DNA from: Lachnospiraceae bacterium
Lineage (GTDB): Bacteria > Bacillota > Clostridia > Lachnospirales > Lachnospiraceae
Direction: 5' to 3'
Assembly: GCA_017633935.1 (NCBI GenBank)
Contig: JAGBOJ010000039.1
Span: 1 to 63,060, forward strand
Length of the DNA stretch: 63,060 nucleotides
The notes under the pieces are model-generated. The model had not been told where the DNA came from, did no database searches, and saw only the letters and a program-made list of their open reading frames with translations. Numbering within the stretch: the stretch's first letter is position 1; every line of letters starts with the position of its first letter. Below, in pieces: positions 17,794 to 27,477 of this stretch. Made by a program: the position numbers and the translations under genes.

Positions 17794-17836
17794 ACAGAAC
17801 AGATCTGTGACTGTAAACGGATCTGTTCTGTTTTTT
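17794..17836 (+). terminator. Intrinsic terminator of rny
   Basis: ACAGAACAGATC (17794-17805) pairs with GATCTGTTCTGT (17820-17831), followed by six T. An apparent 5' extension of the next gene falls inside this hairpin, which supports the later TTG start of that gene. Confidence 0.9.
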
Positions 17837-17840
17837 AACG

Positions 17841-17870
17841 TAAGGAACTGTGCGAAAATAAATTCGCATA
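17841..17870. repeat. Dispersed intergenic motif, copy 2
   Basis: TAAGGAACTGTGCGAAAATA followed by a small hairpin, TGCGAA against TTCGCA. Compare copies at 12020 and 22055. Confidence 0.4.
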
Positions 17871-17899
17871 TCGCTTGTTTTGATAAGGGAGAAATATTT

Positions 17900-20566
17900 T
17901 TGAAATATCTGACCTTGGGCATCCTTGCACATGTGGATGCCGGAAAGACAACTTTATCGGAAAGCCTTCTTTTTGAGAGCGGGATGATCCGCAAGGCCGG
18001 CAGGGTGGATCATAAGGATGCCTTTCTTGATACGCACGATATAGAAAAAGAGCGTGGTATCACAGTTTTTTCAAAGCAGGCGGTAATAGATTACGGCGAT
18101 ATGCGCATAACACTGGTTGATACACCGGGACATACGGATTTTAAGGCCGAGACCGAAAGAGCTCTCATGGTGCTCGACGGTGCGATCCTTGTTATAAGCT
18201 CCTTGGACGGAGTGACCGGACATACGGCAGCTTTATACAATCTTCTGAAAAAATACGGTCTGCCTGTCTTTGTCTTTTTTAATAAGATGGATATTGAAGG
18301 CAGTGATAAGTCTGCGCTTATGGAGGATATAAGGGCAAAGCTGTCCGGCAGCTTTGCTGATCTTTCCGGGGGTATATCAGACCCTGAGATACAGGAGGAG
18401 CTTGCTCTTTGCGATGAGGGACTTATGGAAAGATACCTTGAAGGAAAGGAACTGATCACAGGTAAGGAGGCGGCGGCTCTTGTAAAAAAGGGAGCTCTTA
18501 ATCCCTGCTACTTTGGTTCGGCCCTAAGGCTTGAGGGGGTAAGGGAGCTTATGGAGGGAGTTAAGGAATATCTTCCCGAAAGAAAATATTCCGTCGAACC
18601 TTCTTTTAAGGTGTATAAGATAGCGACTGATGAAAAAAACACGCGGCTTACCTTTGCAAAGATCACCGGCGGCAGTTATGAGGTCAAAAGCGTGGTTCCG
18701 GAGTACGGGGAGAAGATAGAGGAGATCCGTATATATTCGGGAAAGGGGTATGAAAATATAAAGGAAGCCCGGGCCGGTATGCTGGTGGCTTTTACGGGGC
18801 TTAAAAGCTCGAAGACCGCTGATGCCGTTGGAGGCGGTTATGATGAGGTCAGGCATACGATCTCTGAACCGGTCTTAAGATATAAGGTAATCTCAAAGGA
18901 TGGTACGGATCCGAATCTCCTTCTTTCAAGATTGAGAAAGCTTGAAGAGGAGGACCCCGCCCTTCATATCTCGTGGGAGGAGGAAAAACGGGAGATACAG
19001 ATATGCCTGATGGGACAGGTACAGCTTGAGATCGTGCAGCGCCTGATGCTTGAAAGGTTTGGCGAACATATCGATTTCATGCAGGGCAGCATTCTTTACA
19101 AGGAGACGATAGCGGATACCGTGGAAGGAGCGGGACATTTTGAACCGTTAAGACACTATGCCGAAGTACATCTTATATTGGAACCGCTTGAGGAAGGAAG
19201 CGGGGTGGTGATCGACAATATCTGTGACAATGATCTGCTTGCAAAAAACTGGCAGAATCTTATCCTTACCCATCTTACGGAAAGAACCTTTAAGGGAAAG
19301 CTTACCGGCTCCGAGATAACCGATATAAAAATAACACTTGCCTCGGGCAAGGCACATTTAAAGCATACGGAAGGCGGGGATTTCAGACAGGCCACCTACA
19401 GGGCTGTAAGAAACGGTATAATGAAGGCAAAGGGCGTGCTTTTGGAGCCGTGGTATGATTTTGAACTTACTATACCCGAAGAAACGATAGGAAGGGCGAT
19501 GACGGACTTAAGCAATATGGGAGCCGAGTTTAAGCTGTCTGAAAACAAGACGGATTCCAAAACCCTGATAAAAGGGCTCATCCCCGCAAAAGAGGGGATG
19601 AATTACGCGGACGAACTGAAAAAATACACTAAAGATGAAGGCAGGATAGAACTGAATTTTGCAGGCTACAAACCCTGTCATGACGAAGAGGAGGTAATAT
19701 CGGAGATTGGCTACGACCCCGAAAGGGACCTGAGGAACACTGGTAATTCCGTGTTCTGCTCACACGGGGCCGGTGTTATCATACCGTGGTACGAGGCTGA
19801 TGAGCATATGCATCTGCCCTCCGTACTTGTAAAGCAGACAGAGGATGAACAAAAGCCTGTAAATATCAGACGCAGTGAGGGCGTAAAAGCACTCTCGGTC
19901 GATGAGATCGATGCGATAATAGAGCGTACATATTATTCAAACAGAAAAAAAGCCTTTAAGAATGTAAGGACCGCGGAAATGCAGCTTAGAAGCACGTTAA
20001 AGGATGAGGCGGATGTTGTAAAGGGCGAGTCTTCACCGAGAAACGATAAATACAGGGACAGGGAAAAGCAGCAAAAGGTCCGTCCCGGATATGTGCTCAT
20101 AGACGGCTATAATGTGATATTTTCGTGGGAGGACTTAAATGAACTGGCAAAGCTGAACATAGACAGCGCCAGAGACGCTCTGCTTGATATTATGTGCAAT
20201 TACAGGGGACTTAAGGAGGAGGAGCTGATAGTCGTTTTTGATGCTTACAGGGTACAGGGACACGATACTGAATTTCTGGATCATAATAATATTCACGTGG
20301 TCTATACAAAGGAGGCCCAGACTGCGGACAGCTATATCGAGCATTTTTCCCATGAGCATGCCCGGCATTATGACATAACCGTCGTGACCTCCGATAAGAC
20401 CGAGCAGGTGATCGTTTTGGGAGCGGGCTGCAGGGTGAAGGCATCGGATGATTTCAGGACCGAAGTTATAAGGCAGGTAAAGGAGGCTTCGGAGGAATAT
20501 ACAGGGCACAGAACCCCCTCCGTAAACAGCATGGAGGGACAATTTGACGAAATAATTCTTAATTAA
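17900..20566 (+). CDS. TetM/TetO-type ribosomal-protection GTPase fused to a C-terminal NYN (YacP-like) RNase domain
   Basis: The first ~650 residues are an EF-G-like translational GTPase of the Tet ribosomal-protection group: G1 AHVDAGKTT, DIEKERGITVFSKQ, G3 DTPGHTDF, G4 NKMD. After a linker (about 660-725) comes a NYN/PIN-like domain, VLIDGYNVIFSW near residue 731, then VVFDAYRVQG and VTSDKTEQ, as in YacP/Rae1-type ribosome-associated nucleases. The fusion joins a factor that enters the A site to an mRNA-cutting fold, suggesting a ribosome-rescue or surveillance role. The start is a TTG at 17900 with AAGGGAG 8 nt upstream; the frame extends back to a GTG at 17807, but that lies in the rny terminator. 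Tetracycline resistance is not established. Confidence 0.85.
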   Translation: MKYLTLGILAHVDAGKTTLSESLLFESGMIRKAGRVDHKDAFLDTHDIEKERGITVFSKQAVIDYGDMRITLVDTPGHTDFKAETERALMVLDGAILVISSLDGVTGHTAALYNLLKKYGLPVFVFFNKMDIEGSDKSALMEDIRAKLSGSFADLSGGISDPEIQEELALCDEGLMERYLEGKELITGKEAAALVKKGALNPCYFGSALRLEGVRELMEGVKEYLPERKYSVEPSFKVYKIATDEKNTRLTFAKITGGSYEVKSVVPEYGEKIEEIRIYSGKGYENIKEARAGMLVAFTGLKSSKTADAVGGGYDEVRHTISEPVLRYKVISKDGTDPNLLLSRLRKLEEEDPALHISWEEEKREIQICLMGQVQLEIVQRLMLERFGEHIDFMQGSILYKETIADTVEGAGHFEPLRHYAEVHLILEPLEEGSGVVIDNICDNDLLAKNWQNLILTHLTERTFKGKLTGSEITDIKITLASGKAHLKHTEGGDFRQATYRAVRNGIMKAKGVLLEPWYDFELTIPEETIGRAMTDLSNMGAEFKLSENKTDSKTLIKGLIPAKEGMNYADELKKYTKDEGRIELNFAGYKPCHDEEEVISEIGYDPERDLRNTGNSVFCSHGAGVIIPWYEADEHMHLPSVLVKQTEDEQKPVNIRRSEGVKALSVDEIDAIIERTYYSNRKKAFKNVRTAEMQLRSTLKDEADVVKGESSPRNDKYRDREKQQKVRPGYVLIDGYNVIFSWEDLNELAKLNIDSARDALLDIMCNYRGLKEEELIVVFDAYRVQGHDTEFLDHNNIHVVYTKEAQTADSYIEHFSHEHARHYDITVVTSDKTEQVIVLGAGCRVKASDDFRTEVIRQVKEASEEYTGHRTPSVNSMEGQFDEIILN

Positions 20567-20681
20567 ATTAAAGATTATTAAAAATTGTATATTTTTTTTG
20601 AATTTTATGGTAATATAGATTAGTATTTTCAGAAGCCGTATTATTTGGCAGGGGAATAAATCCGTTGTATTGGAGGAGCAC

Positions 20682-21581
20682 ATGGAAACAAATATTTTAC
20701 TGGAAAACGGTACAAATGAGTTAGAGGTTCTGGAGTTTAAGCTGGATGATAACTGTTACGGTATAAATGTGGCAAAGATAAAGGAAATCATCACATATCA
20801 GCCCGTAACCCCGGTTCCTAATGCGCATCCGAGCATAGAAGGTATTTTTATGCCGAGGGATACGATGATAACGGCCATAAATCTCAAAAACTGTCTTCAG
20901 AGAGGGAGTTCCGAGGAAAAGGGTCTTTTCATCATTACCAATTTCAATAAACTGGATATAGCCTTCCATGTTGATTCGGTGGTGGGTATCCACAGGATCT
21001 CATGGAGAGACATTATAAAGCCCAACGCAACGGTCAACAATGCTGATGCCGGTGTGTCCACGGGTATAATAAAGTTTGAGGACAGACTTATAGTTATCCT
21101 CGATTTTGAGAAGATAGTTACCGATATAAGCCCTGAGACCGGTCTTCGCGTAGAGGAGATCAAGGAGCTTGGAGAAAGAGAGAGGAATGATGTTCCGGTG
21201 CTTATGGCTGAGGATTCGGCATTGCTGAATAAGCTGATATCCGATTCACTTAAGGAAGCGGGTTATAATAATCTGATAGACACCGTTAACGGTCAGGAGG
21301 CTTGGGATTATATTTCAAAGGCTGTGGAAGAGGGCGGCAACCTTTCTGAGAAGGTCGGTATCGTTATCACCGATATTGAGATGCCCATAATGGACGGGCA
21401 CAGGCTTACAAAGCTCATCAAGTCACATGACAAGACAAAGAATATTCCTGTGGTCATCTTCTCTTCGCTGGTTAATGAGGAAATGAGGAGAAAGGGCGAA
21501 TCGCTCGGCGCAAATGCCCAGCTTTCAAAGCCGGAGATCGGAAATCTCGTTAGGGTAATAGACGGTCTGGTTAATCCGTAA
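20682..21581 (+). CDS. cheV: Chemotaxis coupling protein CheV (CheW domain plus receiver)
   Basis: Couples chemoreceptors to CheA and tunes adaptation. Residues ~12-150 are a CheW-like domain (ELEVLEFKLDDNCYGINVAK), and residues ~170-295 a response-regulator receiver with phospho-acceptor Asp in IVITDIEMPIMDG and the KP motif LSKPEIG. The 299-residue length is normal. The ATG at 20682 follows GGAGGAGC; an in-frame TTG at 20670 overlaps that ribosome-binding site and is rejected. The upstream region has an extended -10 (TGGTAATAT at 20608-20616). A bidirectional terminator follows. Confidence 0.93.
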   Translation: METNILLENGTNELEVLEFKLDDNCYGINVAKIKEIITYQPVTPVPNAHPSIEGIFMPRDTMITAINLKNCLQRGSSEEKGLFIITNFNKLDIAFHVDSVVGIHRISWRDIIKPNATVNNADAGVSTGIIKFEDRLIVILDFEKIVTDISPETGLRVEEIKELGERERNDVPVLMAEDSALLNKLISDSLKEAGYNNLIDTVNGQEAWDYISKAVEEGGNLSEKVGIVITDIEMPIMDGHRLTKLIKSHDKTKNIPVVIFSSLVNEEMRRKGESLGANAQLSKPEIGNLVRVIDGLVNP

Positions 21582-22135: not shown

Positions 22136-22330
22136 ATGGACGCTCTTTCACCTGAACAGCAGGCTTTATTTGCAAGTATAATGGGAAATTCTTCACAGGC
22201 ACAGGCAGTTAATCCGGTAATTCCGGCTGCTCCGGCAACCCCGACAGCTGCTCCTGCGGGAGGCGGAGATTCAAACAGGGTTTTGTCTCAGGCTGAGATC
22301 GATGCGCTTATTGCATCCATGGCAGGCTGA
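22136..22330 (+). CDS. Small Ala/Pro-rich protein ending in a FliM-type CheY-binding peptide
   Basis: A 64-residue protein, MDALSPEQQALFASIMG, then an Ala/Pro/Thr linker and the C-terminus RVLSQAEIDALIASMAG. LSQAEIDAL is the conserved N-terminal peptide of the flagellar switch protein FliM that binds phosphorylated CheY. Here it is at the C-terminus of an otherwise unrelated short protein. GAGGT precedes the ATG and a terminator follows, so it is a single-gene unit. The gene two further along, at 23009, carries four similar peptides. Binding to CheY or CheV is an inference. Confidence 0.6.
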   Translation: MDALSPEQQALFASIMGNSSQAQAVNPVIPAAPATPTAAPAGGGDSNRVLSQAEIDALIASMAG

Positions 22331-22363
22331 CTCTTTTGTACATTTATTTATTCATTTAAAGAA

Positions 22364-22387
22364 CCCCGCAGACTTTGCGGGGCTTTT
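22364..22387 (+). terminator. Intrinsic terminator of the 64-aa gene
   Basis: CCCCGCA (22364-22370) pairs with TGCGGGG (22376-22382), followed by CTTTT. Confidence 0.85.
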
Positions 22388-22392
22388 ATTAT

Positions 22393-22582
22393 ATGAACAG
22401 GCAACGAGCCAAGGAGACCGCTGTGCGCTTGCGCACGAAGCGGGCCCATTGGCGACTGCCCCCATCGAGCGCGGAGTGCGAGATGAACAGGCAACGAGCC
22501 AAGGAGACCGCCGTGCGCTTGCGCACGAAGCGAGTCCATTGGCGACTGCCCCCATCGAGCATAAGGTGCGAGATGAACAGGT
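22393..22582. repeat. GC-rich tandem repeat, 90-bp unit, about 2.1 copies
   Basis: The unit starts ATGAACAGGCAACGAGCC at 22393, repeats at 22483 and begins a third time at 22573 before diverging. Each unit contains a hairpin, GTGCGC-TT-GCGCAC. Copies differ at only a few bases. Because 90 is divisible by three, several frames stay open on both strands, but none has a ribosome-binding site or family-like protein, so I treat it as non-coding. Confidence 0.75.
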
Positions 22583-22631
22583 GGAGCTTCCTGATTAAAA
22601 GATAAGGTGATCAAAGGGAAACGGAGAAAAA

Positions 22632-22844
22632 ATGAAGAAATTTAAGATTTTGCTGATCTGTGTGTCGGCAGCGGTTGTATTAGCCACAGGCTGTGCAAAA
22701 GAAACGGATAAGGTGACGGATAAGAGGCAGGAGCAGAATACGGGCACCACAGGAGACCTTATGGAAAACGCCAATACCGTACTGGATTATTCCGAAAGTG
22801 AAGCCGGAAATTACGATGCGCTTGACGCGGGCCTTGAAGAGTGA
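22632..22844 (+). CDS. Small putative lipoprotein
   Basis: A 70-residue protein with a lipoprotein signal, MKKFKILLICVSAAVV, and lipobox LATGC. The 49-residue mature part is polar and acidic (DKVTDKRQEQ, SESEAGNYDA). It lies between the 64-aa gene and the 1022-aa gene that both carry FliM-type peptides. A weak GGAGA box precedes the ATG. Function unknown. Confidence 0.6.
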   Translation: MKKFKILLICVSAAVVLATGCAKETDKVTDKRQEQNTGTTGDLMENANTVLDYSESEAGNYDALDAGLEE

Positions 22845-22850
22845 TTTTGT

Positions 22851-22884
22851 TGTAATTCGGAATTGGTTAAGTGTTGAATTGTAG
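22851..22884. repeat. Decayed relative of the MITE-like right end
   Basis: TGTAATTCGGAATTGG then TTAAGTGTTGAATTGTAG resembles the hairpin at 1587-1617 with several changes. Confidence 0.35.
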
Positions 22885-23008
22885 CGCGATTTTAAGCAGT
22901 TGCATCAGAGCGTGCTTAAAATATTCTTAATTTATTTACTTAAAAAAAGCATTATGATAAAATATGTTGTTGACTTGTTTATAAATTAGGGAAAGTATAC
23001 TGCATTTA

Positions 23009-26000
23009 ATGGGAACCGATGAGGACTATTTAGACCGGCTGCTAAGCGCGGTCACTGAAAATTACAGAGAAGAACAGGGGATAACGGAAGAACCTGAACC
23101 GGAGGTCGGTGATAAGTTTGTGTCGAATCCGGAAGCGGTTCTCACCTCAAAGCCGCTCATAGACAAGGAGCCGGTGCCGGAACCGGTTACGGTTGAGCGC
23201 GTTTATGAGCCGGAACAGACATTTGTACAGGAGTCTGTGTCTGAACCTGAAATGAATATGCAAGAGGCTGCTGCAGAGCAGACTCCTGTTTTTGATGAAC
23301 AAATATCCGTGGACACGGAAACCGGAATGCCGCCGATGGAAGAAGTGCCGGTTGATCCGGGTATGGGAATGCCGTCGATGGAAGAGATGCCGGTTGATAT
23401 GGGTATGGAAATGCCGTCGATGGAAGAGATGCCTGTTGATCCGGGTATGGGAATGCCGTCGATGGGAGAGATACCTGTTGATCCGGGTATGGAAATGCCG
23501 TCGATGGAAGAGATGCCGGTTGATATGGGCATGGAAATGCCACAGATGGAAGAGATGCCGGTTGATCCGGGTATGGAAATGCCGCCGTTGGAAGAAGTGC
23601 CGGTTGATATGGGTATGGGAATGCCGCCGATGGGAGAGATGCCTGTAGATATGGGTATGGAAATGCCGTCGATGGAAGAGATGCCGGTTGATATGAGTAT
23701 GGGAATGCCGCAGATGGACGGTTTTATGGATGACGGGCCGGCGGGAATGGATATACTTAATGAGATACAGGGATTATCGGAAGAGGAATTGAATGCCGAG
23801 CCGGAACCGATGTCTGAGCCTGCATTTGAGCCGGAGCCTGCAGCGGAGGAACCCGCATCGGCGCCGGAGTTAAGTGACGATCCGAATCATATAATGACAC
23901 CGGAGGAAATAGCGGCGCTCGTGGGCGGAGCAGCGGCAGAAGAGCCTGCGCCGGAACCTGAGCCGGAACCGATAGCCGAACCGGAGCCTGCATTTGAGCC
24001 GGAGCCTGTATCGGAGGAACCCGCATCGGCACCGGAATTGAGCGACGATCCGAATCATATAATGACACCGGAGGAAATAGCGGCACTTGTGGGCGGAGCA
24101 GCAGCAGAAGAGCCTGCATCCGAACCGGAACCGGAGCCGATAGCCGAGCCGGAGCCTGTATCGGAGGAACCCACACAGGCGCCGGAATTGAGCGACGATC
24201 CGAATCATATAATGACACCGGAGGAAATAGCGGCACTCGTGGGCGGAGCAGCGGCGGAAGAGCCTGCGCCGGAACCGGAACCCGAGCCGGAGCCTGCGGA
24301 GGAAGATGCAAACCGTATGATGTCTCCCGAGGAGATAGACGCCATGTTTGCATCTGCCGAAAGCGTGGCCAGCGGAGAAGCGGAAGAACCTGCCGCCGAC
24401 GGCGGGGCAAAAACCGCCAAGTTCACATTAAACGAAGTGGACGGGGATGTCATACCCCTCGACTTCGGTATTGACGGGGAGGAGACTAAAGAGGAGCCGG
24501 GTACTGCAGACATCCTTGGCGAGCTTGGACTTGCAGGTGCGGATTCCACGGACATGGATGTGACGGAGATCATAGATGACATGCCCGGAGATTCCGAGCT
24601 TTCGGAAATAAACGATCTCCTTAAGAAAAATGATAACAGCGAAATGGTAGAGGAAGATCTTCTGGCAATGCTGCAGGGATCGGAGGAAGGTGAAGGCGAA
24701 GATGAAAATCAGGAGAACGGGGCTGGAGAAGAGCCTGACGAAGATGATAAAAAATCTAAAAAGAAAAAGCGCGAAAGGAAGAAAAAGGACAAGAAAGCTG
24801 ACAAGGAGCCTGAACTTGATGAAGAGGGAAATCCGATCCGGAAGAAAGGGCTTATCGCGCGTATTGCGGAGTTTCTCTTTGCGGGAGATGACGAGGATGA
24901 TGAGGAAGGCTCGCAGATTACACAGCCGGCGATCGCGGAGGATGGGACGCTTGTTGCAAATCCCAGCGAGCAGACTCTTGAAAATAATGAAGTTCTGAAA
25001 GAGGCTTCTGCCGACGCAGACGACAAGAAAAAGAAGAAAAAGAAAAAAGAAAAGAAACCGAAACCCAAGAAGGAAAAGAAGCCGAAGCCGCCAAAGCCCA
25101 AGAAGGAAAAGAAGCCTAAGGACCCGGGACCGCCGGAAAAGAGGCTGCCGAAAAAGAAGGTGATCGCTGTCGCCGTATTCTTTACATCCTTCCTTGCGGC
25201 AGTGACCTTCTGCACCTTTGCATTTGCCAATATAGGCTATGAAAGTGCGGCAAAGACGAATTATCAGAAGGGTGATTATAAAGGGGCCTATGAGTCCTTA
25301 AACGGCCTTGATCATATCTCTGCGGAAAGTCAGGACATATACAACAGGGCATATGTGCTTATGCGTCTGCAGAGAAGGCTTGATGCATATAATGAATTTG
25401 AACAGCGCGGAGATGCTTTAGGTGCAATAGATTCGCTTATTCAGGGAGTGCAGATAAGGGACGGACTTACGGAGTATGCTGCCAGCCTTGAAGTCGGATC
25501 TCAATTTGAGGAAATCTATCAGGAGATCTTAAATACATTAAGCGGAATGTTCGGTGTAGACGAGGCAAGGGCGCGTGAGCTCTATGATATAAGCGACAAG
25601 GTTGAATATACGATGGCGCTTATGGATGTGACCGATCCTGGCTGGAGAGACGAGATACAGCCTACCGTTGAATTGACGGAGGGCGGAGCCGGCATAGAGT
25701 TTGCAGAAGACGGGCTTACCGTGGATAATGCGGCACACCGGCAGGATACCGGAGAGGGGGAGCAGGCAGGGGATGCTGAGCAGACAGATGTTGAGATCCC
25801 CGATATGTCCGAGGACGCGTGGCTTCCTGAAGAGGATACCGGATTTCCGTCGGGCGACGGCACGGATACGGGAGGTAATAATCAGAACGGAAATACCGAG
25901 GGTATAACCCTGACTCCCGACAGTGATACAGTGATAATACCCGAGGGAGCCCAGCTTCAGGTGACTCCGAACAACAATAATCCATCGGGCGGCAATAATA

Positions 26001-26077
26001 ATGGCAATAATAACGGGCAGACGCTGTATCAGTTCAATGTGACAAAGGATGCCAACGGCAACTATGTGCAGCAATGA
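23009..26077 (+). CDS. Large repeat-rich membrane protein with four FliM-type peptides
   Basis: A 1022-residue protein of no family I know. Residues 107-232 are nine 14-residue repeats of the type MPSMEEMPVDMGME. Residues ~255-450 are Pro/Glu-rich with three near-identical blocks DDPNHIMTPEEIAALVGGAA (near 294, 350, 400) and a fourth variant NRMMSPEEIDAMFA (near 435); these resemble FliM's CheY-binding LSQAEIDALL. A Lys-rich stretch and one membrane helix (about 718-740, after PKKK) imply a cytoplasmic N-terminus. Outside, ~745-880 looks TPR-like (YQKGDYKGAYESLNG), then an Asp/Gly/Asn-rich tail. The ATG has no good ribosome-binding site, and TATACT at 22996 would put the start of RNA near the ATG. 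Confidence 0.75.
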   Translation: MGTDEDYLDRLLSAVTENYREEQGITEEPEPEVGDKFVSNPEAVLTSKPLIDKEPVPEPVTVERVYEPEQTFVQESVSEPEMNMQEAAAEQTPVFDEQISVDTETGMPPMEEVPVDPGMGMPSMEEMPVDMGMEMPSMEEMPVDPGMGMPSMGEIPVDPGMEMPSMEEMPVDMGMEMPQMEEMPVDPGMEMPPLEEVPVDMGMGMPPMGEMPVDMGMEMPSMEEMPVDMSMGMPQMDGFMDDGPAGMDILNEIQGLSEEELNAEPEPMSEPAFEPEPAAEEPASAPELSDDPNHIMTPEEIAALVGGAAAEEPAPEPEPEPIAEPEPAFEPEPVSEEPASAPELSDDPNHIMTPEEIAALVGGAAAEEPASEPEPEPIAEPEPVSEEPTQAPELSDDPNHIMTPEEIAALVGGAAAEEPAPEPEPEPEPAEEDANRMMSPEEIDAMFASAESVASGEAEEPAADGGAKTAKFTLNEVDGDVIPLDFGIDGEETKEEPGTADILGELGLAGADSTDMDVTEIIDDMPGDSELSEINDLLKKNDNSEMVEEDLLAMLQGSEEGEGEDENQENGAGEEPDEDDKKSKKKKRERKKKDKKADKEPELDEEGNPIRKKGLIARIAEFLFAGDDEDDEEGSQITQPAIAEDGTLVANPSEQTLENNEVLKEASADADDKKKKKKKKEKKPKPKKEKKPKPPKPKKEKKPKDPGPPEKRLPKKKVIAVAVFFTSFLAAVTFCTFAFANIGYESAAKTNYQKGDYKGAYESLNGLDHISAESQDIYNRAYVLMRLQRRLDAYNEFEQRGDALGAIDSLIQGVQIRDGLTEYAASLEVGSQFEEIYQEILNTLSGMFGVDEARARELYDISDKVEYTMALMDVTDPGWRDEIQPTVELTEGGAGIEFAEDGLTVDNAAHRQDTGEGEQAGDAEQTDVEIPDMSEDAWLPEEDTGFPSGDGTDTGGNNQNGNTEGITLTPDSDTVIIPEGAQLQVTPNNNNPSGGNNNGNNNGQTLYQFNVTKDANGNYVQQ
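23327..23704 (+). repeat. In-gene tandem repeat, nine 42-bp units
   Basis: Nine exact-length 42-bp units inside the 1022-aa gene, each encoding 14 residues of pattern MP-x-M-E-E-M-P-V-D-(M/P)-G-M-(E/G). A tenth unit at 23705 degenerates. Unit number is likely to vary between strains. Confidence 0.9.
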
Positions 26078-26101: not shown

Positions 26102-26728
26102 ATGGTAGCGATAATAGATTATGATGCGGGAAATATAAACAGCGTGGAAAAGGCAGTCCGTTATTTAAATGGGGAGTGCCGTATAACACGTGACAAAGCG
26201 GAGATCCTTTCGGCGGATGCGGTCATTCTTCCGGGAGTGGGGGCTTTTGGTGAGGCAATGGAAAGGTTGAATGAGTATGATCTGACCGGCACCGTAAAGG
26301 AAGTCATATCCAAAGGTACACCGTTTCTTGGAATATGTCTCGGACTCCAGCTTTTATTTGAAAAAAGCGAAGAAAGTCCGGGGGTAAGCGGGCTCGGAGT
26401 GATAAAAGGAAGCGTTAAGAGACTTCCCCGGGATTTGGGATTAAAGGTTCCCGATATAGGATGGAATTCACTTCGGATATATAACAGGAACGGTCTTTTT
26501 AAGGATCTTGAAGACGAGGTTTTTGTATATTTTGTTCATTCCTATTATGCGGATGCGGAGGATAAATCCGTAGTTACCGCCGGGATAGATTACGGAGTAA
26601 GGGCGGATGTGGCTGTTGAGGCAGGCAATGTGTATGCCTGTCAGTTTCACCCCGAAAAATCCTCTAAGGCGGGACTTAAGATTTTGTCAAATTTCCTTAA
26701 GGTGGCTGAATGTATACCAAAAGAATAA
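26102..26728 (+). CDS. hisH: Imidazole glycerol phosphate synthase, glutaminase subunit
   Basis: Glutaminase partner of HisF in histidine synthesis; releases ammonia that is channelled to the cyclase. The 208-residue class I amidotransferase has the nucleophile motif [11 protein letters not shown] and the His-Glu pair in QFHPEKSSK. It overlaps hisF by 19 bp, consistent with a fixed 1:1 complex. Confidence 0.95.
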
Positions 26729-27477
26729 TCCCCTGTCTCGATGTAAATAACGGCAGGGTGGTAAAAGGAGTTAATTTTGTGAATCTGGTGGACGCCGGAG
26801 ACCCGGTGGAGGTAGCCGGAGTGCATGACAGGGAAGGTGCGGACGAGCTGGTTTTCCTTGACATCACGGCTTCATCAGACGGAAGGCGCACGGTTATCGA
26901 CATGGTAAGCCGTGTGGCAAGCTGTGTATTTATCCCATTCACGGTAGGCGGGGGCATACGCACGGTGGATGATTTTAAGGAGATACTCAGGGCAGGAGCG
27001 GACAAGGTTGCCGTTAACAGTGCAGCCATAGCAGACCCGGAGCTTATATCAAGGGCAGCCGACAAATTCGGAAGCCAGTGCGTGGTGCTTGCGATGGACG
27101 CGAAGAGAAGACCTGACGGAAACGGTTTTACGATCTATAAAAACGGCGGCAGGGTGGATATGAATATCGATGCCGTTGAATGGGCAAAAAAAGCGGTAGA
27201 GCTCGGGGCGGGCGAGATACTGCTTACAAGCATGGATGCGGACGGCACAAAGGCCGGATATGACATAGAGCTTACAAAGGCGGTATCGCAGGCGGTACCG
27301 GTGCCGGTTATCGCTTCGGGCGGAGCGGGAAATAAGGAGCATTTTTACGAGGCGCTGAGTGAAGGCGGAGCCGAAGCTGCTCTTGCCGCATCGCTCTTTC
27401 ATTTTAAGGAGCTTTCCATAGGTGAGGTCAAGGAATATCTTTTACAAAAAGGAGTGCCTGTAAGATGCCTGAAATAG
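26710..27477 (+). CDS. hisF: Imidazole glycerol phosphate synthase, cyclase subunit
   Basis: TIM-barrel cyclase that makes IGP and AICAR from PRFAR and ammonia. The 255 residues begin [19 protein letters not shown] with the N-terminal catalytic Asp, and include [13 protein letters not shown] and [11 protein letters not shown] phosphate loops. It overlaps hisH upstream and ung downstream by 13 bp. The AICAR by-product could feed the AICAR transformylase encoded at 30 kb. Confidence 0.96.

Follow-up and report, generated by a model that had tools for sequence, protein, structure and literature searches.

FliM-like docking peptides on p64 and on predicted membrane scaffold proteins of flagellated Lachnospiraceae

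Results

We analyzed a stretch of DNA of 63,060 nucleotides from Lachnospiraceae bacterium (assembly GCA_017633935.1, contig JAGBOJ010000039.1, positions 1 to 63,060; hereafter the window), which encodes two proteins with peptides resembling the N terminus of flagellar FliM. The FliM N-terminal peptide is a meeting point of chemotaxis signals and the flagellar motor. One report gives LSQxEIDxLL as the motif by which FliM binds CheY (PMC5677366), and another places the CheY-binding site at EIDALL in the FliM N terminus (PMC9126983). A preliminary description of the window had noted such peptides in a protein of 64 amino acids (aa), here called p64, and in a 1022-aa membrane protein, with cheV just upstream. 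The gene at 20670-21581 indeed encodes CheW and Response_reg domains and lies upstream of both, and the open reading frame (ORF) of the 1022-aa protein starts 679 base pairs (bp) beyond p64. The main features, with supporting evidence in brackets (HMM, hidden Markov model), are these:

20670..21581, + strand: cheV, a 303-aa protein with a CheW-like domain and a receiver domain (Pfam CheW, 8.2e-31; Response_reg, 6e-16)
22136..22330, + strand: p64, a 64-aa protein with two conserved short motifs and an Ala/Pro/Gly linker (homologue searches)
22145..22180, + strand: N-terminal block of p64, LSPEQQALFASI (conservation, 72 sequences)
22274..22321, + strand: C-terminal FliM_N-type peptide of p64, NRVLSQAEIDALIASM (conservation; FliM N-terminal HMM, E = 3.9e-6)
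23009..26077, + strand: 1022-aa putative membrane scaffold protein, its long N-terminal region acidic and rich in Pro and Glu (homologues; like architecture in other genera)
23879..23932, + strand: peptide 1 of the 1022-aa protein, DPNHIMTPEEIAALVGGA
24047..24100, + strand: peptide 2, same protein sequence as peptide 1
24197..24250, + strand: peptide 3, same protein sequence as peptide 1
24305..24358, + strand: peptide 4, DANRMMSPEEIDAMFASA, with EID as in p64 and FliM
25160..25231, + strand: predicted single membrane helix, preceded by a Lys-rich stretch (hydropathy; exact ends by eye)
25238..26074, + strand: C-terminal region of the 1022-aa protein, probably extracytoplasmic (part used for comparison, 25238-25663)

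The p64 protein reads MDALSPEQQALFASIMGNSSQ...NRVLSQAEIDALIASMAG, its C-terminal end being NRVLSQAEIDALIASMAG; LSQAEIDAL occupies residues 50-58 and is followed by six residues. Homologues were found in 26 of 37 genomes of the genus (E<1e-3), and none at E<0.03 in 24 genomes outside it. Patterns based on the two blocks, run over named genomes, yielded 80 p64 loci in Butyrivibrio and other Lachnospiraceae, many of them from the rumen. Loci were fetched on a match to either block pattern, so that conservation is somewhat favored by the search, and the counts that follow refer to 72 of the 80 loci, the other eight giving no clean reading by regular expression. In the N-terminal block, EQQAL and I are invariant (72/72). 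In the C-terminal block LSQ, EI, and AL are present in all 72 sequences, and D and the Met at the block end in 71 each; one to three residues follow. The linker varies among homologues. Because both blocks are conserved and the linker is not, we regard p64 as a real, conserved, bipartite protein that joins a FliM-like motif to a second short motif. One homologue (L202, 1941-2297) has a duplicated N-terminal block, which suggests that this block may be a docking motif as well.

Neither Pfam nor NCBIfam gave a match to p64, and a search of the PDB gave none either. In the Pfam/NCBIfam scan of p64 and the 1022-aa protein, TIGR02216 scored 0.0022, far below its cut-off, and the FliM middle domain (PF02154) matched neither protein; neither is a member of the FliM family. 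FliM exceeded the cut-off in 47 of the 50 p64 genomes searched (of 80). Across the Lachnospiraceae survey described below, the p64 profile matched 6 of 299 genomes, two of these matches being other peptide carriers (a FliY in G117 and a hairpin-type protein in G206).

The 1022-aa protein carries the four related peptides that had been noted, three copies of DPNHIMTPEEIAALVGGA and one of DANRMMSPEEIDAMFASA, all N-terminal of a Lys-rich stretch. A single membrane helix is predicted near residue 718, after this stretch; because the Lys-rich stretch precedes the helix, the peptide side is, judging by charge, most likely cytoplasmic. The C-terminal region is 68% identical to that of locus L128 over 142 columns and has no Pfam family, and the Pfam and NCBIfam searches assigned no family to the protein. 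Homologues occur in 28 of 61 relatives, all 28 within the genus, and proteins alike in position and architecture (1022-type) occur in other genera. The regular expression found no motif copy in the scaffold homologues L081 (G014), L084, L086, and L088, and one copy was seen in L083 (G031) once the narrow expression was set aside.

The peptides are far from what shuffled sequence of the same composition yields. A loose motif occurred 0.00035 times per shuffle of p64 (20,000 shuffles) against one observed, and 0.007 times per shuffle of the 1022-aa protein (4,000 shuffles) against four observed; the stricter L[ST]QxEIDxL was seen 0 times in 100,000 shuffles of p64. When an HMM built from 38 FliM N termini, out of 40 collected, was run against 1,760 segments of the window, p64 was the sole significant match (E = 3.9e-6).

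We also built a profile in the reverse direction, from 110 distinct scaffold peptides with those of p64, FliM, and FliY excluded, and searched 1,862 non-carrier proteins. This set was enriched by the FliM fetches (about 88 C-ring proteins), and many of the matches are close orthologues or come from overlapping loci. At E<1 there were 46 matches: 34 FliY, 7 FliM, 3 other proteins, and 2 carriers that had been missed (labels by sequence motifs; 11 FliY were relabelled by eye). The scaffold peptides thus recover FliY or FliM in 41 of 44 non-carrier matches. When a mixed profile, A2, was compared with the PDB, the best natural protein was FliM (8umd, E = 0.054). A DxN[HKR]-like prefix is common to p64, the scaffolds, and the FliY of G117. 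On this sequence kinship, the peptides appear to have been copied from the docking peptide at the N terminus of FliM/FliY and to stand on proteins that are not part of the C-ring.

To follow the distribution of the peptide we surveyed 299 Lachnospiraceae genomes from 298 genera; the statistics ignore ancestry. FliM was present (E<=0.001) in 153 genomes and absent from 146. The preliminary description had named, as a finding that would refute it, an equal occurrence of homologues in genomes without CheY and flagella; at the strict threshold no such equality was seen. At E<=1e-4, A2 matched 57 of the 153 genomes with FliM and 0 of the 146 without (Fisher 5e-20, uncorrected for ancestry). The corresponding counts were 52 and 0 at 1e-5, 74 and 2 at 1e-3, and 139 and 51 at 0.3. 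Since matches at the weak end probably include the N termini of FliM and FliY themselves, we relied on the strong end. Five of the 57 strong genomes (E 1e-5 to 1e-4) have no located protein; in the other 52, three matches fall in FliY. Thirty of the 52 located matches were read as loci, and the remaining non-FliY ones are known by frame length only. Within the genus of the window, all 37 genomes have a FliM match. At the level of the class, 12 of 391 genomes matched at E<=1e-4, nine of them in the same family, members of which are included in the 391. The three class-level matches outside Lachnospiraceae read like N termini of C-ring-type proteins.

FlhF, the usual partner of FlhG, was scored across genomes at E<=1e-30. 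Three genomes with peptide matches inside FliY (G117, G167, and G255) have no FlhF at this cut-off. In these three genera the peptide would therefore serve a C-ring protein without that partner system. Genomes without FlhF tend to have a weaker-scoring, more divergent FliM.

The pair next to cheV is thus real but not isolated, carriers of the peptide being widespread among Lachnospiraceae. They comprise p64, 1022-like membrane proteins, membrane-hairpin proteins that end in the peptide, and, in three genera, FliY. Read by eye, the 30 loci (L236-L265) divide into 5 of the 1022-type, 24 of the hairpin type, and 1 without a helix. In the 1022-type a helix follows the peptides in four of five loci, and the fifth, L236, does not reach that part. 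Hairpin-type proteins have two helices near the N terminus, a coiled-coil-like part, acidic linkers, and peptides. Two or three helices were predicted in 19 of the 24; L257 showed one, although two were seen by eye in the longer L277, and four loci showed none, three of them being cut at the locus edge. The last peptide copy stands 4-8 residues from the C terminus in 23 of 24, and L237 runs into a contig end. Up to 13 copies per frame were counted by regular expression (G160). The multivalent, membrane-bound display proposed for the window is thereby supported in the carrier loci, with a predicted topology.

FliY proteins with internal FliM-like peptides were seen at L282 (4292-5770, - strand), L283 (3913-5340, -), and L230 (1737-3143, -), in genomes that score weaker for FliM and have no FlhF at E<=1e-30; the matches lie between the CheC and FliN parts in G255 (Pfam) and in G117 (by eye). 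Another kind of carrier is a small protein at L231 (3640-4056, -; G003:C12:17639-18055), with four LSQ/LTQ-x-EID-x-L peptides in about 123 residues, whose gene adjoins genes resembling sugar transport and sugar isomerase genes.

The repeat copies allowed selection to be compared within genes. Over 122 adjacent repeat pairs, the ratio of nonsynonymous to synonymous differences (pN/pS) was 0.14 in the 12 core codons vs 0.49 in the 14 codons after them, the crude pairing of flanks inflating the second value and the motif-fixing expression lowering the first. The pS values were alike (0.46 in the core, 0.52 in the flank). The peptide copies are under purifying selection.

The linkage to cheV held for the 1022-type gene: counting the window, cheV precedes it in 15 of the 18 genomes whose sequence extends far enough; we chose these genomes from the genus of the window and seven others. 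No cheV was present in the upstream sequence fetched for G012, G028, and G004. The count leaves out G263 and G339 (no carrier by expression) and G035, G160, and G021 (contig end). It includes G014, G031, and G101 on homology or profile matches, the expression having found no copy there; G237, G328, G296, and G101 gave no BLAST match to the C-terminal part of the 1022-aa protein and were counted by position and peptides, and L128 and G030, the same contig, were counted once. In most of the chosen genomes hisH follows the 1022-type gene. The linkage to cheV may be plain synteny of cheV and hisH. In G139 a PAS-GGDEF-EAL gene stands between cheV and the carrier gene (L285, 7169-8917, -).

For p64 the proximity to cheV is local: a conserved context was considered and rejected, for the neighbors vary by lineage, and p64 is close to cheV in the nearest relatives only. 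Besides the window, 2 of the 80 loci have cheV and a 1022-type gene next to p64 (flanks of at most 6 kilobases, frequently cut by contig ends). In G013, p64 likewise adjoins the start of a 1022-type gene. A methyl-accepting chemotaxis protein gene lies within 1 kilobase of p64 in 10 of 80 loci; several of the ten share one neighborhood, and we place no weight on the count. Near 14 hairpin-type loci we recognized, by eye, a parB-like gene in 6 and a DUF3881-like gene in 7; DUF3881 and DUF4446 were confirmed by Pfam in L266. The carrier gene of G089 (L275) adjoins genes that by eye resemble fliD, fliC, and fliS.

The other features of the window around the two genes are these:

22632..22844: ORF of 70 aa that begins like a lipoprotein, lying between the genes for p64 and the 1022-aa protein
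23324..23718, + strand: 42-bp tandem repeats encoding the GMxMPxMEEMPVD repeat region (Tandem Repeats Finder)
26102..27477, + strand: hisH- and hisF-like genes, usual downstream neighbors of the 1022-type gene

A 90-bp direct repeat (22393-22581; 2.1 copies, 91% alike) separates p64 from the lipoprotein-like ORF. Upstream, a 919-aa protein that by eye resembles TetP/EF-G (17807-20566) has one match, LSVDEIDAI, to a degenerate DNA pattern, which we take as chance.

Elsewhere in the window genome there are a CheY gene in the C-ring operon (by eye), FliY (Pfam), CheA, CheB, CheW, CheC, and CheD (by eye), and flhF with an adjoining gene for a MinD-like ATPase that has a DQAxxLR motif. CheY is reported to bind the FliM peptide with its alpha4-beta5-alpha5 face (PMC11528121). 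The CheY of the C-ring operon has an aromatic residue at the binding face. In a two-sequence alignment the CheV receiver has Q where this CheY has F, a position that we take to be on the peptide-binding face. Because Q replaces F there, recruitment of CheV by the peptides, as had been suggested, is unlikely, and CheV appears to be a poor candidate ligand. The preliminary interpretation is thus supported in part: docking peptides on predicted membrane scaffolds survive from it, whereas the recruitment of CheV probably does not.

Discussion

The observation made in the window is real. The peptides are conserved and associated with flagellar genes, and they occur more widely than was first evident. 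On balance we think it somewhat more probable than not, from the sequence comparisons, that membrane scaffolds and p64 carry FliM/FliY docking peptides that most likely bind phosphorylated CheY (CheY-P) and buffer it. The peptides would hang from disordered acidic linkers on membrane-anchored scaffolds of the 1022-type and hairpin type in flagellated Lachnospiraceae, and in p64 from the end of a small bipartite protein. They would bind CheY-P at its FliM-binding surface, as many weak copies at the membrane, so that a scaffold would hold and release CheY-P; the outcome might be lower free CheY-P, slower spread, or retention near the motor or the receptor array. p64 might act as a soluble adaptor or as a competitor through its second motif. 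The identity of the ligand, its need for phosphorylation, and any change in motor switching are inferred.

CheY-P appears the likeliest ligand on three counts: FliY retains the peptide in the absence of FlhF, 1022-type genes are neighbors of cheV, and CheZ offers a precedent. Like p64 and the hairpin-type carriers, CheZ is described as having its CheY-binding docking peptide at the C terminus of a longer protein (PMC12270135). By Pfam, neither p64 nor the 1022-aa protein has a CheZ phosphatase domain, which sets them apart from CheZ. The peptide of FliM/FliY (LSQxEIDxLL) is like that of the scaffolds in core sequence, in the S/T before the helix, and in the flexible linker. The hydrophobics shared would presumably be L6, I11, L14, and L15 of the FliM peptide in E. 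coli numbering. In contrast to FliM/FliY, the peptides here are on non-C-ring proteins, in up to 13 copies and often C-terminal; DPN[HKR]x[ML] stands before them, and EIA frequently takes the place of EID. The Cle proteins of Caulobacter are likewise extra players at the interface of CheY and the FliM peptide; they are described as additional CheY-like receivers for the peptide, whereas here it is the peptide that is present in extra copies (PMC5677366).

Several observations weigh against this interpretation. Even at E<=10 the 1022-aa protein is absent from the matches to the FliM N-terminal HMM, so that of the two proteins for which a FliM_N search had been proposed only p64 is recovered; the case for relating the 1022-aa peptides to FliM comes from the broader set of carriers. 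Its three MTPEEIAAL copies are recent duplicates (1-3 nucleotide differences of 57) and hence not independent, and [ST]PEEIAAL, read as sequence, also fits a generic helix start. Of 48 distinct scaffold peptides, 9 have Asp at the last position of EID, 9 have Glu there, and 30 have Ala, the expression having allowed these three residues alone; in Caulobacter the Ile/Asp pair is reported to matter, both residues having been changed together (PMC5677366). In the PDB search A2 ranks HeliScrew4 (E = 7e-4), taken as a designed repeat, above FliM, and FliM is followed by a cytochrome (0.25) and BiP (0.33). Two genomes without FliM, G125 (5.3e-4) and G212 (8.4e-4), have A2 matches at E<=1e-3, and some near-complete genomes with FliM, e.g., G014, G031, and G033, are without p64. 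A flagellar promoter for p64 was considered and rejected, sigma-28-like sequences being found upstream in 1 of 72 loci vs 0.36 in shuffles; sigma-A-like sequences were found in 30 of 72 vs 6.7. FlhF is present in all 54 strong genomes with a non-FliY match (54 of 126 genomes with FliM and FlhF vs 0 of 27 with FliM and no FlhF), and Thermotoga FliY reportedly binds activated CheY no better than inactive CheY (PMC7355467).

The last two points bear on FlhG, which we consider a serious and strong rival to CheY-P as ligand. The peptides would then bind this MinD-like ATPase, and the scaffolds would be HubP-like landmarks that hold or compete for FlhG and so set flagellar place or number, an account that we find possible but, taken whole, unlikely. 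FlhG is reported to bind FliM through the FliM N terminus, and in B. subtilis to take FliY and not FliM (PMC12826062); residues 1-36 of FliY are described as necessary and sufficient in Bacillus/Geobacillus (PMC12826062, PMC12327844), so that FlhG and CheY would look to the same region. FlhG stays a strong rival because of the FlhF association (54/54, counting the five genomes without a located protein), because the scaffold profile recovers FliY more than FliM (34 vs 7), FliY being the partner of B. subtilis FlhG, and because of the reported lack of preference in Thermotoga. The MinD-like ATPase gene beside flhF in the window genome and the parB-like and DUF3881-like genes near hairpin-type loci (6 and 7 of 14, by eye) point the same way. 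So does HubP/FimV: HubP is described as a membrane protein whose cytosolic part is long, acidic, and repetitive, as in the 1022-aa protein, and as interacting with FlhG (PMC8789113). The 1022-aa protein has a predicted membrane helix but no LysM domain by Pfam and is not placed in HubP/FimV, from which it also differs in that its repeats carry FliM_N-type peptides. Against FlhG stand the linkage of 1022-type genes to cheV and the three genomes that lack FlhF and still carry the peptide inside FliY; moreover, as genomes without FlhF tend to have a divergent FliM, the FlhF association may be one of ancestry.

Two further accounts assign the carriers no part in signaling. If the scaffold repeats were generic amphipathic helix motifs with some other job at the membrane or cell pole, their likeness to FliM would be convergent and p64 alone would be FliM-like. 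The matches to HeliScrew4 and BiP, the missing HMM match, and the recent duplication of the copies would fit, but we judge this quite unlikely, since a profile from scaffold peptides only singles out FliY and FliM, no strong match occurs among the 146 genomes without FliM, p64, the scaffolds, and G117 FliY have the prefix in common, and the copies are under selection. More doubtful still is that the carriers are C-ring assembly factors that gather FliM/FliY, e.g., by competing for their N-terminal partners, instead of signaling buffers: strong matches do follow the presence of FliM, and one carrier gene (G089) adjoins fliD-, fliC-, and fliS-like genes, but no flagellar genes were recognized by eye near the carrier in the other 13 hairpin-type loci, and several genomes of the genus have FliM and no p64.

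We found no description of such scaffolds in the open-access literature, judged by titles and the starts of abstracts of top-ranked results, with subscription journals and preprints mostly outside its scope, and no paper on DUF3881 in the same literature. This is weak evidence that the scaffolds are undescribed. The peptide itself has been described before; what seems new is that scaffolds outside the C-ring carry it.

Returning to the buffering of CheY-P, we offer one extension tentatively, as a conjecture that may well fail: the multicopy peptides of the scaffolds would compete with the C-ring for CheY-P, perhaps for FlhG, and copy number, fast-changing by repeat duplication, would tune switching or flagellar placement. 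The natural series of proteins with differing copy number would offer a means to study how multivalency tunes a signaling switch, and dozens of hypothetical proteins become motility candidates. About fifty genera of Lachnospiraceae have the peptide on proteins that do not belong to the C-ring, and none of the 146 sampled relatives lacking FliM has a strong match; this suggests that dedicated scaffolds buffer or place free CheY-P or FlhG. If true, this would be a layer of motor control not described before in flagellated Lachnospiraceae.

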